Source: a bacterium
GTDB taxonomy: Bacteria; UBP4; UBA4092; JAOAEQ01
DNA: 64,000 nucleotides
Reading direction: 5' to 3'
Assembly (NCBI GenBank): GCA_026416715.1
Contig: JAOAEQ010000021.1
Location: 1-64,000 of the forward strand
Shown: positions 9,130 through 63,395 of the stretch, one piece after another
How the letters are laid out: every line of letters starts with the position of its first letter
Numbering within the stretch: the stretch's first letter is position 1
Notes under the pieces: generated by a model
Told to the model about the DNA's origin: nothing
The model's input: the letters and a program-made list of their open reading frames with translations, nothing else
The model's database searches: none
Made by a program: the position numbers and the translations under genes

Positions 9130-9213
9130 CTCAATCCAAAATGTTCCATAAACAATATTCAACGCAAAATGGATACTTGCGCATTGAAAATGAATATTGA
9201 TAATCGTAATAAC

Positions 9214-29609: not shown

Positions 29610-32600
29610 TTAGTCAATAATCGTTGCGGTTAAGAAAATAAATAACCGACTGGTTTCAGTGTAATCTATATTCTTCTTAAAAAAGGTACGAATGATTGGG
29701 ATACTGCCTAAAATAGGAAATTTCGATTCCGCAGTATGCGCTCGTTCGTGGATTAGTCCGCCTAGTACAATAGTTTCCCCCGTATTAACTCGTGCTTGCG
29801 TAGTTAATGTGCGCGTATCGATTACCGCTTGTCCTAATACTTCTGAATTTAATACATTTTTACTATATGGTGAATCAGCTAATCCTACATCCGGAATAAC
29901 CATATTGATTGGAACGCGACCGACGATTTCCTGAACAGTCGGAGTAATGTTTAAAATTATCGAACCATCTTCGTGGATTGTTGGAGTTACGGTCAATGAA
30001 ATATTCACTGAATCAAATGACCACGCATATGAAATTGTGCTGTTTGTCCATGTAACAGTTACATTCGGAACACTCTTATACATTGATAAGGTAGCCGATT
30101 GCTGGTTAATTACGGTTACCCTTGGTGATGAAATAGTTTTCGAAACTCCTTTAGCTTCCATTGCTTGGAACGTCGCAGATAATCCACCTTTGGTCTGGAG
30201 TTGATATAATGTATTACCGCCTATAAGGTTGGTGCCAAAAAGCGGGTCTAGGACATCAGCACTACCGCCAAAATTAACCTGGTCATATACCGGAGTTAGA
30301 CTGCCAATATTACTTAAACTTGGAATTACCCAGTCAAAACCATATTTTTTTGCCATAGTTTCATTAACTTCGATAAACTTCGCTTCAATAGATACTTGCA
30401 ATAGTGGGATATCCAGCTGTTCTACTGCTTGGAGAAACCGGTTCCACGCTTCCGGTTTATCACGGTCAATCCAGACTATCAGCGCATTACTCGGAGTATA
30501 CTGCTGAATATCAAGAATCCCGATATCCTGCATAGACCGACGCTGGGGAAGTTGCGCTCCTTGTGGTTGACCAAACTGTTGTGCTTGGTAGAACTGCATC
30601 TGTTGTGCACCTTGTATCTGCCAGATTTCGATTTCTATCTGTGGCGGGTTGAACGTTGCTTTCGTTAACCGGATACGATACATATCCGCTTGAATACTCT
30701 GACCAAGAGTTAATGTCTGGTCACCATCTCGAGCGGGAGTCCGCCAATAAATCCTCGCTGATGGATTAGCCGTATCTCCAGTTAAACTAACTAACTCGAT
30801 ATATAAATCACCGTAGGTAACACCGCCTCCTGACCCTTGCGATAAGGTATATTTCGGTGCTGACCCGATACCGCCGCCACCGCCAGGGCCCTGTAAAATC
30901 CTACGTAATGCTTCTAATAATGAATTCGGTTCCGCATGTTTAATTTTATAAATTTTCCACGGCTGGTCTTCCAGCTCGGGAAGTTGTGCAATATAATCCG
31001 CGACTTTCTTCTGATTTATTTTGGTATCGACAACTGAGATAATTCCGCTTTTTTCATCTGGGATTAATCTTCGTCCACTTTCATACGCTTTATCTCGACC
31101 TTCCTGCGCATATAGCATTGCACCGAGAATTTCCGCTATTCCATCGACCATTTGTTTCCGTAAATTTGCTTTTCGTTCAGCTTCCGTAGCGTCGTCTTTC
31201 GGGTCTGCAAGTAATGCTCTTGGGACAACCCGATACGCATTCGCAACTAAATCTGATTCCGCTAATTTATCCATCATATTTTTGTTAGCGAGGAATTCTT
31301 CTACTTTGCGAATATTATCAAGCGTATCCCGAACGACCAACGTAGTTCCGCCTGGTTCTAAAATAACTTTGCGTTCGGTTATATCTACTCCTGGCACCGG
31401 TGACGCTTCTAATAATGCGGTTACTGCCTTTCTAACTTCTTCAGCTATACCTCGGCGGATGATAAATGTTTTATTGATTAACTCAGTCGGACGAGGTTCT
31501 ACCGCCGGTAAATTGGTGGTAATATATTCATCCAACTTAGCAATATTTGCTTTTGTATCAGTAATGATAAGCTGATGTGTTCGTTCGTCAAGATATAATT
31601 GCTGACCAGCAATTTGCGGTTTTACATCTTTTCCATAAAGATAATCCTGCAACATCCGAGTTTCGACCATTAGATAATGCAGTTTACGCACCTGGTCATT
31701 ATTTAACGTATATACTTTACTTTTTAAATCTGGAATTACTTGAATAGTATTCCCTATCCGATTATATTTAAATCCATATAAGGGCAGTAAATTGTCTAAC
31801 GCTTGTTTCAATGACCAATTTGACGCGGAAAAACTTACTTTCGCTTTAACTCCTTCTCCAATGATAATATTAAACCCAGCTACCGCTCCCATTTGCGTCA
31901 AAACATCGCCAATTTCTTGATCTGGGACATCCATCGTAATTACCGGCGCTAACATTCTTTGTTCATTTTCTGCTTCTTGTTTAGCTAATTCTTCTGCTTT
32001 TCTCTGCTCTTCAAGTGCCTTTTCATATTCCGGACGAGTTTGTTCAATCATTAATTTCGCTTGACGATGGTCTGGAACTAATGACAGAACGGTTAACCAT
32101 TCATTATGTGCAGTAATAAAATCGTTTTTATTTAACGCAGCTAATCCCGCTTGATAATGCGCTTCCGCTTCTTTCACTTTAGCTGCTAATTCCGCTTTCG
32201 CGCGTTCTGCACGAACCTTTGCTTCTGCTGCTTCTGCTCGTTTAATTTTTTCTGCATATGCCCGTTCTTCAGCATCCTGTTTTTTCTTCTGAACTACAAC
32301 TTCTTTTTCTGGTCGAGTTTTTTGTTCTTTTGCACTAATTGCTGCCGCTTCTTTAGCTTTTTGTTTTTCCAAAGCTTGCGCTTCCTGCCGTAATATAGCT
32401 TCCAGCTTCTGCTGCGATTTTTCTAAAAGCGACTTCGCTTCTCCATTATTTGGGTCTAATTCTAAAACTTTCTGAAATTGTTCTACGGCTATTTCATATT
32501 GTTGTTGAGCATAGTTCTTCTTCCCAGCTTTGAGTAAATCGCTAATCTGCTGTTCCCGCAATTTCTCTTCCTCTTTCGCTTTCAATTCCATTTCTTTCTT

Positions 32601-33218
32601 CGCCGCTAACTCCTGCGCCCGCTTCTCAGCAGCAGCCCTCTTCGCCGCCTCCTCAGCAGCCTTCCGCTCCGCCATCTCTCGTGCCGCCGCCTCCTCAGCC
32701 GCCTTCTTCGCCGCTAACTCCTGCGCCCGCTTCAATCGCGCCTCTTCCGCTAACCGTGCCTTCTCCTCTGCTCGTGCGCGTTCTGCAGCTTCCCGCGCCG
32801 CTTTTTCCTGTGCTATCTGCTCTGCTTTCGCTCGTTTAATCGCTTCTTCTTGTGCTTTCTTTTCTGCAGCTAATCGTGCTCGCTCTTCAACAACTTTCTG
32901 TGGATTTGCAATCGCATCATCACATTTCTTGATATAACTTAACGCGTCTGGATGGCTCGGGTCTAACCGAATCACTCGCTCAAACTGCGCTTTCGCTTCC
33001 AGATATTTATCTTGTTCATACAAGGCAATTCCTTTTTTCAAAAATTCTTTAATCTTCGACTGTTTTTCCTTTTCATACGCTGCCATTTCATCTGCGGTTA
33101 ATTTCGCAATACGCGTATCTCCTGTATTGACATCAGCGAAACTATTGGATACACTATAACTCTGAACTAAAATTGAAAAGCCGAGTATTAAACCAATAAT
33201 TAATCTTGACGATGTCAT
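29610..33218 (-). CDS. giant secretin with N-terminal TPR and coiled-coil region (PilQ/GspD-like)
   Basis: About 1,202 aa. Order: Sec signal peptide (about 1-28), TPR-like helices (about 40-95), a long Ala/Glu/Lys/Arg-rich coiled coil (about 110-225), a second TPR-like block (about 225-275), more charged helix, a third TPR-like block (about 345-400), then secretin N-domains (STN-like segment beginning ITMDVPDQEIGDVLTQMG, about 430-505) and the C-terminal secretin pore (about 960-1,200, with SIEAKFIEVNETMAKKYGF and GETIVLGGLI). It should form an outer-membrane channel for pilus or secretion. The frame extends 26 codons to an ATG at 33296 that has its own ribosome-binding site. I prefer 33218 because AGGGAGG lies 9 nt before it and the signal peptide begins there. 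Most secretins are 450-750 aa. Confidence 0.85.
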   Translation of the reverse strand: MTSSRLIIGLILGFSILVQSYSVSNSFADVNTGDTRIAKLTADEMAAYEKEKQSKIKEFLKKGIALYEQDKYLEAKAQFERVIRLDPSHPDALSYIKKCDDAIANPQKVVEERARLAAEKKAQEEAIKRAKAEQIAQEKAAREAAERARAEEKARLAEEARLKRAQELAAKKAAEEAAAREMAERKAAEEAAKRAAAEKRAQELAAKKEMELKAKEEEKLREQQISDLLKAGKKNYAQQQYEIAVEQFQKVLELDPNNGEAKSLLEKSQQKLEAILRQEAQALEKQKAKEAAAISAKEQKTRPEKEVVVQKKKQDAEERAYAEKIKRAEAAEAKVRAERAKAELAAKVKEAEAHYQAGLAALNKNDFITAHNEWLTVLSLVPDHRQAKLMIEQTRPEYEKALEEQRKAEELAKQEAENEQRMLAPVITMDVPDQEIGDVLTQMGAVAGFNIIIGEGVKAKVSFSASNWSLKQALDNLLPLYGFKYNRIGNTIQVIPDLKSKVYTLNNDQVRKLHYLMVETRMLQDYLYGKDVKPQIAGQQLYLDERTHQLIITDTKANIAKLDEYITTNLPAVEPRPTELINKTFIIRRGIAEEVRKAVTALLEASPVPGVDITERKVILEPGGTTLVVRDTLDNIRKVEEFLANKNMMDKLAESDLVANAYRVVPRALLADPKDDATEAERKANLRKQMVDGIAEILGAMLYAQEGRDKAYESGRRLIPDEKSGIISVVDTKINQKKVADYIAQLPELEDQPWKIYKIKHAEPNSLLEALRRILQGPGGGGGIGSAPKYTLSQGSGGGVTYGDLYIELVSLTGDTANPSARIYWRTPARDGDQTLTLGQSIQADMYRIRLTKATFNPPQIEIEIWQIQGAQQMQFYQAQQFGQPQGAQLPQRRSMQDIGILDIQQYTPSNALIVWIDRDKPEAWNRFLQAVEQLDIPLLQVSIEAKFIEVNETMAKKYGFDWVIPSLSNIGSLTPVYDQVNFGGSADVLDPLFGTNLIGGNTLYQLQTKGGLSATFQAMEAKGVSKTISSPRVTVINQQSATLSMYKSVPNVTVTWTNSTISYAWSFDSVNISLTVTPTIHEDGSIILNITPTVQEIVGRVPINMVIPDVGLADSPYSKNVLNSEVLGQAVIDTRTLTTQARVNTGETIVLGGLIHERAHTAESKFPILGSIPIIRTFFKKNIDYTETSRLFIFLTATIID
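32596..32733 (-). repeat. 30-bp direct repeat in a GC-rich coiled-coil segment of the secretin gene
   Basis: The same 30 bp occur at 32596-32625 and 32704-32733, 108 bp (36 codons) apart, each encoding KRAQELAAKK. Between and around them, about 32590-32780, codons are strongly G/C-ending, unlike the A/T-ending codons of the rest of the gene. Confidence 0.75.
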
Positions 33219-45287: not shown

Positions 45288-45394
45288 AATTTTTCGCTGT
45301 GACGCTACAGACAATATAAGTTAATGCAAAATATTCCAGTAACAATATTCAACGTAACATGAGGATAAATATTGCATATGGAACGCTATACGAC

Positions 45395-53134: not shown

Positions 53135-53143
53135 TTAAATAAT

Positions 53144-53474
53144 TACCGCAGAGAACGCTGAGTTCGCAGAGAAAAAAATTGGTTTAGAGTATACCTAAAA
53201 AGAATCTCGGCGGTCTCCGCGCTCTCTGCGGCATCGAAATTGCTTCTTGTTAATCCCGTTAGGGATGATTGATTCTAGCCCAGCTATGTATAGGTATAGC
53301 TGGTTCGCTATGCACCATAATATCCGCTAGTCCTGTCAGGGACGTCTGAATGGTCTGCAGCGCCGCTGGGTTTTAACCCAGAATGAAACCAATGACGGGT
53401 TCTGGGCTGAAGCCCGATAAACCGGTCTACCATCTCTCCCCAACCTGAAGGTCGGGGCGAGTCATTCGGGACTA
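53144..53474. repeat. palindrome-rich repeat, copy A (between metK and ahcY)
   Basis: Non-coding. It begins ACCGCAGAGAACGC and reaches the inverted partner GCGCTCTCTGCGG near 53220-53232. It continues with TTAATCCCGTTAGGGAT, CCAGCTAT/ATAGCTGG, TGGGTTTTAACCCA and GGGCTGAAGCCC blocks. The reverse complement aligns along its length with 60947-61294 (copy B), sharing for instance AGTCCCGAATGACT and TCGGGCTTCAGCCCAGAACC. It fills most of the 426-bp gap 53108-53533. No ORF. Confidence 0.85.
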
Positions 53475-60391: not shown

Positions 60392-60757
60392 ATGGTAAAA
60401 ATGAGCAAGTGGTTGATTTCACTCATTACCTTAACACTTATAGCCGGATGCATAACCCAATATTCCGGAACAAAAAAACCCTATTCCTCACGAGTGAAAA
60501 TGGCCAAACCGGCACAACCGGAAATTTTGCAGCATGTCTTCTATATCGTTATCCCGCCGAAAGGAACCATCAGCTCACGGAAGAAAGTTTTAGTTACGGT
60601 ATATAAAAGCTATTCAATCCAATCCGGAGAATTGATGAAGGTGGCGGAAGGAACCCATGTTCGCGGACTTGAAAAACGCGGAGATTGGTATCGTATCCAA
60701 CTTCCTGACGGCAAAACTGAAGGATGGATGCAAGGATACTATTTAGAAAAAGAATAA
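60392..60757 (+). CDS. SH3-domain lipoprotein
   Basis: 121 aa. A signal peptide ends in the lipobox LIAGC (lipidated Cys at 20). Residues about 50-118 form a bacterial SH3 domain (VLVTVYKSYSI, VAEGTHVRGLEKRGDWYRIQL, DGKTEGWMQGYYL). Such domains usually bind peptidoglycan peptides. It stands alone on the plus strand, divergent from eno. Alternative start at the Met in position 4. Confidence 0.8.
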   Translation: MVKMSKWLISLITLTLIAGCITQYSGTKKPYSSRVKMAKPAQPEILQHVFYIVIPPKGTISSRKKVLVTVYKSYSIQSGELMKVAEGTHVRGLEKRGDWYRIQLPDGKTEGWMQGYYLEKE

Positions 60758-60904
60758 TCAATCTAAATTTTGCACTAAGCAATACGCGTTTGGTTGATTC
60801 GGTAATGAATTTTACGGAAGTTTCAGTCCAATATCGGCATCGAATCGAACGAACTTAAAGTATTAGAGTAGAAGTTTAGTATACGGTAAGTCAAATCAAT
60901 CTAC

Positions 60905-60931
60905 TATTTATTCACCCGTTCATATTCTGCG
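60905..60931. repeat. 27-bp duplicate of the udg 3' end (left copy)
   Basis: Identical to 61517-61543, which encodes the last residues AEYERVNK and part of the stop of the uracil-DNA glycosylase on the minus strand. This copy is detached from the gene by 585 bp of palindrome-rich DNA. Both copies are preceded by ACTATTTA-type sequence; the right copy has two extra TTTA units. Confidence 0.9.
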
Positions 60932-60946
60932 GTTGTGACCAAATCG

Positions 60947-61294
60947 TTAGTCCCGAATGACTAGCCCCGACCTTTAGGTTGGGGAGAGATGGTGGTACGG
61001 TGTGTCGGGGTGTCGGGCTTCAGCCCAGAACCCGTCTGCGGTAGCGCAGGCTGTCAGCCTGTAGAACGTTACCACTCGGGGATATGCAGAAGGGGGCTAA
61101 GTCCCTAACGGGACTCACGAAACGATCCCGTATGGCGACCCAGCCATAAATGGCTGGGCTAATATCAATCATCCCTTCGGGATTAACAAGAAGCAATTTT
61201 TTTCACCGCAGAGAACGCCGAGGGTCTTCTTGGGTATATAAACTAAACCAAATTTTTTTTCTCAGCGAGCTCTGCGTTCTCTGCGGTGAAAAAA
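60947..61294. repeat. palindrome-rich repeat, copy B
   Basis: Aligns with the reverse complement of 53144-53474 (copy A). Shared blocks include AGTCCCGAATGACT, the GGGGAGAGATGGT stretch, TCGGGCTTCAGCCCAGAACC, GGGATTAACAAGAAGCAATT and the CCGCAGAGA...TCTCTGCGG unit. Copy B holds additional palindromes at 61047-61115 that A lacks, so the copies are mosaic. Confidence 0.85.
61198..61294. repeat. 97-bp unit with perfect 21-bp terminal inverted repeats
   Basis: The left arm at 61198-61218 (TTTTTTCACCGCAGAG, then AACGC) is the exact reverse complement of 61274-61294. The interior is T-rich and contains GGGTATATAAACTAAACC. The copy-A counterpart (53144-53233) is diverged. A third partial unit starts at 61431 (CACCGCCGAGACCGCCGAG). 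Confidence 0.85.
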
Positions 61295-61515
61295 GTTTTG
61301 TTGCCGGTTGTTAGCCCTGATAAGGGCGATTGGATTTAGCCCAGCATGAAATGCTGGGACTTAGGTCATGAACAAATGCGTTAGTCCCGCTCGGGACGGC
61401 TGAATGCAAAAAGAATATATTCACCGCCGAGACCGCCGAGAACGCCGAGATTGTTCTTGGTTATTCTGGGTTGAAACCCAACGGCGCTGATGATTCAGTC
61501 CAATGAACTATTTAT

Positions 61516-62235
61516 TTATTTATTCACCCGTTCATATTCTGCGCGAAGCAGAAGCATATCCTGCCAGGCATCATATTTCGAGCTCGGATTCCGCAGTAAA
61601 TATGACGGATGGAACGTAGGGAGAACCGGGATCCCTTCGTAGGTATAAAATTTTCCACGAAGTTGGCTGATTTTCGATTCCGTCCGGAGTAATGTCTGTG
61701 CAGCAAACGTTCCGAGTGCGCAAATCAGTTTCGGTTGGATAATTGCTAATTGCGCTTTCAGATAGGGTTCACAACATGCAATCTCTTCCGGTAATGGATT
61801 CCGATTCCCTGGCGGTCGGCATTTGAGAACATTACAAATGAAAACTTCCGTTCGCTTGACATTCAGTGATTTTTCAGCTTCAATCATCTGGGTTAATAAT
61901 TGTCCCGCCCGACCGACAAACGGTCTCCCTTGCACATCTTCGTCTTCACCTGGTGCTTCCCCGACAAAAACCAGTTTCGCCCGTGGATTACCTTCTCCGG
62001 GAACGGTATTCTTTCTGGTCTTATATAGCGGACATTTGGTACATCGCGCAATGTCAGCAGCAATATCAGCTAAGGTTCGCATTGTCGGCAAAGTAACCTC
62101 GGCTCTATCTTCGGATTTCACTAGGGTTTGCCCATCAAATTCTGCAAATTGAGTAAAGGATTCTACTCCGAGTTTTTTAGCGATTCGAAGATGTGTTTCT
62201 AATGATGTAATCAGTGCAGTTAATTCGTCAGACAT
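61516..62235 (-). CDS. udg: uracil-DNA glycosylase, family 4/5 (iron-sulfur)
   Basis: 239 aa. Four Cys for a 4Fe-4S cluster: C65 and C68 (CTKC), C139 (LKCRPP) and C155 (ACCEPY). Motif A is GEAPGEDED (92-100), which fits family 4; motif B is HPSYLLRNP (209-217). An N-terminal extension of about 40 residues is common in this group. It removes uracil from DNA. The last codons and stop lie inside the 27-bp repeat shared with 60905-60931, so the end of the gene is where the palindrome cassette entered. Confidence 0.92.
   Translation of the reverse strand: MSDELTALITSLETHLRIAKKLGVESFTQFAEFDGQTLVKSEDRAEVTLPTMRTLADIAADIARCTKCPLYKTRKNTVPGEGNPRAKLVFVGEAPGEDEDVQGRPFVGRAGQLLTQMIEAEKSLNVKRTEVFICNVLKCRPPGNRNPLPEEIACCEPYLKAQLAIIQPKLICALGTFAAQTLLRTESKISQLRGKFYTYEGIPVLPTFHPSYLLRNPSSKYDAWQDMLLLRAEYERVNK
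61517..61543. repeat. 27-bp duplicate of the udg 3' end (right, in-gene copy)
   Basis: Partner of 60905-60931. It covers codons for AEYERVNK plus two bases of the stop; TTTA repeats lie just outside. Confidence 0.9.
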
Positions 62236-62294: not shown

Positions 62295-63395
62295 CTAGAA
62301 GATGATACCACGACGGTCAGCGTCGGCATATCCACCAGCGATATTTCGGCGTAATCCAGCAGGGTCGTCGGAATAGAGCAATCCGGTTTCAAGGTCAATC
62401 TTTTTCGCCTGGTATAATTTAACCAGCGATTGATTAAATGTTTGCATTCCATTTTCGCCATCCTGAATAACCTGATGCATTTCTGCTATTTTCCCTTCAG
62501 CAATCAGCTTGCGGATTATTGGCGTATTCGTCATTATTTCTAACGCGGGAACACGTCCTTTCCCATCTGCAGTCGGCAGTAACCGTTGACAGATAACCCC
62601 TTGCAGAATCTGCGATAATTGTTTACGAATTTGCGGCTGCATTTGAACTGGATAGAAATCGAGAATTCGACCCACGGTTTGTGGGGCATCATACGTATGT
62701 AAGGTTGCCATAATTAAATGTCCGGTTTCTGCGATTGCCATGGTAACCTGCATGGTTTCTATGTCCCGGATTTCGCCAATCATAATCACATCCGGATCCT
62801 GTCGCAAAACATGTTCTAATGCACGACTGAATGACTCTGCATCGGTACCGACTTCACGCTGGCTAATAACACTCTTTTTATTCTGATGTAAAAATTCAAT
62901 CGGGTCTTCAACTGTGATAATGTTACAAATCCGATTCGAGTTAATACTATCAATCATTGCCGCTAACGTAGTGGATTTGCCGCAGCCAGCGGTTCCGGTA
63001 ACGAGAATTAACCCTCGCTCTTCGTTCGCTAATTTTTCGACAATTGGTTCGAGATTCAACTCGGCAAAACTCGGTATCCGAAGTTTAATCGCGCGAACCG
63101 CAATATCATAACAACTTCGTTGCCGAAAAATATTTATCCGGAATCTCCCTAATCCGGGAGATACATAAGCGAAATCGACATCACCCCGTTCGTCTCGGAT
63201 ACGGCGTAATCGTTCGGTCGTCAGTAAAGCATCGCTTAAATCTTTCGTATCCTTATCCGTTAACTTTGCGTAGGGAGTAGGGGTTAAAGCACCGTGAATT
63301 CGAAACATTGGCGATGCGCCAACCTTGAGATGCAAATCGGAAGCTTCTTTGCTTAACATTTCAGCAAGGAGTAAATCAAATTCAGTCAATTGCAT
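62295..63395 (-). CDS. pilT: PilT-type retraction ATPase
   Basis: 366 aa. N-terminal ASDLHLKVGASPMFRIHG, Walker A GTAGCGKST (134-142), the Asp-box and Walker B (DPDVIMIGEIRDIETM) and the His-box AIAETGHLIMATLHT define PilT/PilU-like ATPases. The HTYDAPQTVGRILDFYP form differs somewhat from the usual HTNSA form. It powers pilus retraction and would serve the PilM-PilN/secretin machine encoded at 29.6-35.5 kb. The udg gene follows after 59 nt. Confidence 0.92.
   Translation of the reverse strand: MQLTEFDLLLAEMLSKEASDLHLKVGASPMFRIHGALTPTPYAKLTDKDTKDLSDALLTTERLRRIRDERGDVDFAYVSPGLGRFRINIFRQRSCYDIAVRAIKLRIPSFAELNLEPIVEKLANEERGLILVTGTAGCGKSTTLAAMIDSINSNRICNIITVEDPIEFLHQNKKSVISQREVGTDAESFSRALEHVLRQDPDVIMIGEIRDIETMQVTMAIAETGHLIMATLHTYDAPQTVGRILDFYPVQMQPQIRKQLSQILQGVICQRLLPTADGKGRVPALEIMTNTPIIRKLIAEGKIAEMHQVIQDGENGMQTFNQSLVKLYQAKKIDLETGLLYSDDPAGLRRNIAGGYADADRRGIIF

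Follow-up and report, generated by a model that had tools for sequence, protein, structure and literature searches.

In the window analysed here, a stretch of 64,000 nucleotides of bacterial DNA, the uracil-DNA glycosylase gene (udg) lies next to an island of palindromes whose far edge carries an exact copy of the last 27 bp of the gene. We suggest, with a probability of roughly 0.6, that two separate things are seen at this locus: a pre-existing BIME-like island belonging to a REP-like family with an Acido-Lenti-1 core, and a young, local copying of the end of udg to the far side of that island. A local duplication beside a REP-like island is by itself of modest value and has precedent of a known type; more broadly, Acido-Lenti-1 has been described as an RNA family but is still unexplained, and in this lineage it occurs as mosaic DNA islands that are dispersed.

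The udg locus, its 27-bp repeat and the palindrome cassette

The udg gene is located on the minus strand at 61516-62235 and matches Pfam PF03167 (UDG) at 4.7e-40; the ATPase gene that adjoins it (62295-63395) is also its neighbour in the nearest relative. On the opposite side of the island, and convergent with udg, lies a small plus-strand gene for an SH3-domain, lipoprotein-like protein (60392-60757; Pfam SH3_3, 1.3e-07). Sequence comparison bears out what an earlier, sequence-only reading of the same DNA had pointed to: positions 60905-60931 and 61517-61543 are identical at 27 of 27 bp, forming a direct repeat that reads TATTTATTCACCCGTTCATATTCTGCG on the plus strand, and the right copy belongs to udg itself as its native 3' end, on the minus strand and in frame with the intact gene, where it reads AEYERVNK followed by the stop codon. 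The left copy is a detached duplicate of this 3' end, found in the genome only here and in udg; read on the udg strand it also gives AEYERVNK, followed by TAG where udg has TAA. Since udg retains its own 3' end, the gene is intact. The repeat is the sole exact pair of at least 15 bp in the 1.5 kb around the udg locus, and its 24-bp core does not occur a third time in the genome (2.96 Mb), even with up to three mismatches allowed; the repeat is thus not a matter of chance. A longer, imperfect duplication (from 60889 on at the left and from 61497 on at the right) was considered and rejected, as the anchored-extension test gave P values of 0.14-0.33, which are not significant. On the udg strand, a 6-bp hairpin, TTCTGC-TTCGC-GCAGAA, spans the point in udg at which the duplicated block begins; this feature was spotted post hoc.

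Between the two copies no ORF of at least 60 aa is present, the longest having 58 aa, which agrees with the earlier description of this interval as free of ORFs. The interval holds 9 perfect, non-overlapping, G+C-rich palindromes, compared with 2.0 +/- 1.4 in shuffled sequences, and as a single strand the cassette folds far more stably than shuffles do (z = -8.2); the earlier count of at least eleven palindromes is fair when the 28-bp arm pair described below and the imperfect palindromes are added to the perfect ones. The 585 bp between the copies do not all belong to the cassette. Genome-wide module matches, with edges set by masking against other islands, place the mosaic island proper at 60932-61501 (570 bp), and the remaining bases at 61502-61516 are a non-module spacer, unmasked by island modules, that has a (TATT)n tract at its end and takes in the final base of the udg stop codon. 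The left edge of the cassette, at GTTGTGACC, falls in the middle of a module when compared with the island at C18:40179; at the right edge, module similarity stops at 61501, again inside a module and 15 bp short of the repeat.

In order, the cassette consists of a truncated left arm, a centre, a right arm, a CACCGCAGAGA inverted pair, a left arm and a truncated end. The palindrome pair of the right arm, at 61139-61184 on the plus strand, forms the core and matches the Rfam family Acido-Lenti-1 (RF01687) with 48.2 bits, which is above the Rfam gathering score of 37 bits; a second, inverted, Acido-Lenti-1-like palindrome pair in the left arm (61313-61358, minus strand) reaches 32.7 bits, under the Rfam cut-off. 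The CACCGCAGAGAACGCCGAG module, at 61195-61297, has two 28-bp arms in inverted repeat (61195-61222 and 61270-61297), which are 93% complementary. Weak microRNA and snoRNA matches lie far under their own cut-offs and were set aside.

A dispersed family of mosaic islands

The palindromes do belong to a dispersed family, with no transposase gene near the cassette: BLAST of the cassette against its own genome yields 114 matches at ~30 places. The islands are mosaic and, by a rough ORF call, intergenic, with small ORF overlaps in a few cases. Read by eye, their recurring layout is a three-hairpin arm, then a centre that varies, then a second arm that is inverted and differs slightly in sequence; the arm hairpins are TTAGCCC..GGGC-GATTGA, TTAGCCCAGCAT..ATGCTGGG and TTAGTCCC..GGGAC-GGCTGA, and inverted repeats of the CACCGCAGAGA type sit between island units. 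The 12 strongest cassette matches elsewhere are 69-92% identical and none of them covers the whole cassette; the assembly holds no recent source island. For the arm palindrome TTAGCCCAGCATNNNATGCTGGG, no exact match was found in 289 other genomes.

A second island of the family is found within the window at 53143-53474; it is reversed, has the same module order and carries no flanking repeat, and the genes on either side of it, of 418 and 382 aa, are both on the minus strand. Several contigs of this genome (G000), namely C21, C26, C43-C46 and C48, start or end in palindrome islands, and since the assembly breaks at islands, all copy numbers are lower bounds. Two further repeats were observed in the window: a pair of 39-bp stretches (AATCCAAAATGTTCCATAAACAATATTCAACGCAAAATG) at 9133-9171 and 45323-45361, which are 85% identical, lie 36 kb apart and are not an island module, and a G+C-rich, possibly coding region at 32596-32837 with tandem-like 42-bp repeats and one exact 30-bp pair.

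Genome-wide, RF01687 gives 24 matches at E <= 0.001, many of them within islands, and when 25 copies are aligned, two-sided changes that preserve pairing are seen at two of the eight predicted pairs. Acido-Lenti-1 was listed by Weinberg et al. as an RNA motif of Acidobacteria and Lentisphaerae (PMC2864571), and according to a 2026 paper little is known of its function (PMC13298647). What the islands share with it is the hairpin pair CCCAGCAT..ATGCTGGG - CTAA - GCCC..GGGC, which scores above the gathering score here and in many other islands; however, Rfam classes the family as an sRNA gene, while in this genome it has the character of a DNA repeat, dispersed within mosaics and on both strands. 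No sigma-70-like promoter was found in 60700-61700.

Origin of the duplication at udg

The simplest picture of the locus is that the whole cassette was inserted once at the 3' end of udg, by an unnamed transposase or a repair event, and that the 27 bp (or a longer stretch that has now diverged) are its target duplication, as the sequence-only reading had proposed. The succession of left flank, copy, cassette, copy and udg, together with the 27/27 identity of the copies, fits this picture. The remark in that reading that 27 bp is long for transposons is fair, but it is not absolute: IS1549 and IS1634 give direct repeats of variable length, from 8 to 514 bp (PMC2266710), so that length alone does not exclude a target duplication. 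The flanks of the other islands, however, argue against it. Flank analysis, based on sequence stretches taken around islands and mobile-gene matches, covered 26 of the ~30 islands, this one included, and a non-module flanking repeat of at least 13 bp was found at one of the 26, the udg island, by exact matches of 15 bp, exact matches of 13 bp and alignment scores against mismatched flank pairs alike. The 25 other examined islands have no flanking repeat, so the family as such is not marked by the duplication; the earlier reading had named the flanks of other cassette copies as its own check, with a consistent lack of duplications counting against it, and this is essentially what was found. Two candidate repeats were rejected: a flanking repeat at island 21 (score 18) was judged from its sequence to be module at both ends, and the exact-match test found none at the flanks; a 23-bp repeat on contig C15 (L078, 10216/10645) lies away from any island, in sequence that looks coding.

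The edges of the cassette are likewise not those of an element with defined ends abutting its repeats, as the left end lies in mid-module and 15 bp of non-module DNA come before the right copy. The lack of any near-identical source island in the assembly also speaks against an insertion of the whole cassette, as does the fact that IS200/IS605 elements, the likely kin, insert without a target duplication (PMC8612924). Taken with the flanks, this leads us to consider a target duplication unlikely. Neither is the repair-type capture of that reading favoured in the form of Ku-dependent end joining, since the sole Ku match scores 11.9 bits, far under the 25-bit cut-off, and no convincing Ku gene was found in the genome. 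At the end of contig C8 of this genome, a reverse transcriptase gene (L201, 5358-6836; RVT_1, 2.6e-22), whose C-terminal part matches MutS domain I, is cut by the contig end; a link of this gene to a group II intron was rejected, as no group II intron RNA scored nearby.

The 27 bp could also be the attL and attR of a site-specific element that integrated into the 3' end of udg, restored the gene end and was later reduced to palindromes. The geometry would fit, with the gene keeping an end and the displaced end lying next to other flanking DNA, and tyrosine recombinase genes are present in the genome; but the two integrase matches are on contigs C17 and C18, no integrase or cargo adjoins the cassette, the whole cassette is made of modules that occur at ~30 other places without such repeats, and the core of the 27-mer lacks a third copy, so that we find an integrated element very improbable. 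Least credence is given to an assembly artefact, in which sequences would have been wrongly joined at an island rich in repeats in this metagenome-type assembly. That several contigs, including the window's own contig, begin or finish in islands means that these are hard to assemble; however, none of the other islands read contains the junction between the left 27 bp and GTTGTGACC, and by our reasoning a chimera through shared words would need that junction in reads, and the 27-bp repeat should be shorter than a normal read.

Among 60 genomes and the GTDB r220 contigs, no relative close enough to provide an empty site was found. The nearest udg neighbours come from no closer than the same class (UBA6127, UBP4 by its record), udg being 64-65% identical. 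In the nearest relative, another gene lies past the 3' end of udg, and the cassette gives two marginal matches and no real module matches.

In the reading that we favour, a pre-existing island with a later local copy at its edge, the island would already have been beside udg when the last 27 bp of the gene were copied to its far side. The copying may have taken place by template switching or slippage at hairpin-rich DNA during replication; alternatively, it may have used the strand transfer by which REP arrays are built up, a process known to pick up the 3' ends of genes. The 6-bp hairpin at the start of the duplicated block in udg is counted in favour of this reading. By the comparison of identities, the duplication would be younger than the modules, because the left copy, which is under no evident constraint, is 27/27 identical compared with 69-92% for the best partners of the island, although 27/27 identity is compatible with up to ~10% divergence (95%), which bounds the age loosely and makes the argument for youth a weak one. 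The duplication looks like a one-off local event and not like the normal spread of the islands. The islands themselves have probably been spread by an IS200-like Y1 (HUH) transposase acting on single-stranded hairpins, an enzyme no longer found in the assembly; we infer this REP-type mechanism by analogy, borrowing it from other systems.

Acido-Lenti-1, insertion sequences and REP elements

In another genome (G041), an inverted pair of strong Acido-Lenti-1 matches, one of them the best in the whole search, is found near a Y1 gene: the pair lies at 1444-1546 of L180 (contig C96), within ~150 bp of a gene for a Y1 (IS200-like) transposase at 1602-2054 (Pfam, 1.9e-27). This pair supports the likeness of the islands to REP arrays and suggests that the Rfam family might serve as the substrate of a transposase; no adjacency of Acido-Lenti-1 and Y1 was found in the coordinates of the other five genomes with matches, which leaves G041 as the single instance. 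One may tentatively go further, and with the odds against it, speculate that Acido-Lenti-1 is primarily a palindromic DNA substrate of IS200-like Y1 transposases and a TTAG/CTAG-tagged counterpart of REP, that the islands capture neighbouring gene 3' ends while growing, and that the udg copy is a fresh capture of this kind. If the association with Y1 were general, Acido-Lenti-1 would have to be re-read as mobile DNA. In a single-contig genome of 2.2 Mb (G141; L183, L189 and L197), Acido-Lenti-1-like matches below the cut-off were seen, some of them in tandem at 87-bp spacing, along with GTTCCGTAGGAAC palindromes.

The substrates of IS200/IS605 elements are single-stranded hairpins preceded on the 5' side of the stem by a short guide sequence, and in this lies the likeness of the islands to these elements; the difference is that the window holds no such element and none was found in the genome. 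With IS1549 and IS1634 the locus shares long, variable direct repeats, but those elements are 1.5-2 kb in length and carry a transposase gene, and nothing comparable is found inside the cassette.

REP and BIME (or REPIN) elements are clustered, inverted, intergenic palindromes whose spread is attributed to Y1 (HUH) transposases, RAYT/TnpA-REP (PMC2817692, PMC8266576), and Nunvar et al. reported four BIMEs with a captured 3' end of rayt (PMC2817692). The islands resemble them in their short intergenic palindromes, inverted pairs, mosaic clusters, high copy number and some compensatory changes in the stems; palindromes of 20-40 bp are present in many copies, extragenic, clustered and arranged in inverted pairs, as is characteristic of REP and BIME. 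They differ in that their arms are triple hairpins of ~90 bp, in that an exact duplicate of the end of a neighbouring gene is found here at the island edge, and in their tags: the 26 islands contain TTAG 94 and CTAG 78 times, and GTAG 32 and CGTC 55 times, versus 63 expected, and island stems are often preceded by TTA or TAG. They also differ in that no Y1 transposase gene was found in this genome, with no match to PF01797 at E <= 10 in an assembly estimated to be 100% complete; a copy could lie in an assembly gap. Because the tag is TTAG/CTAG and not GTAG or CGTC, and no Y1 transposase was found in the genome, we say that the islands look as if they work like a REP array, by analogy, and do not claim that they are one. 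If the association of Acido-Lenti-1 with Y1 were general, REP-type elements would extend past the GTAG and CGTC tags into deep, uncultured lineages.
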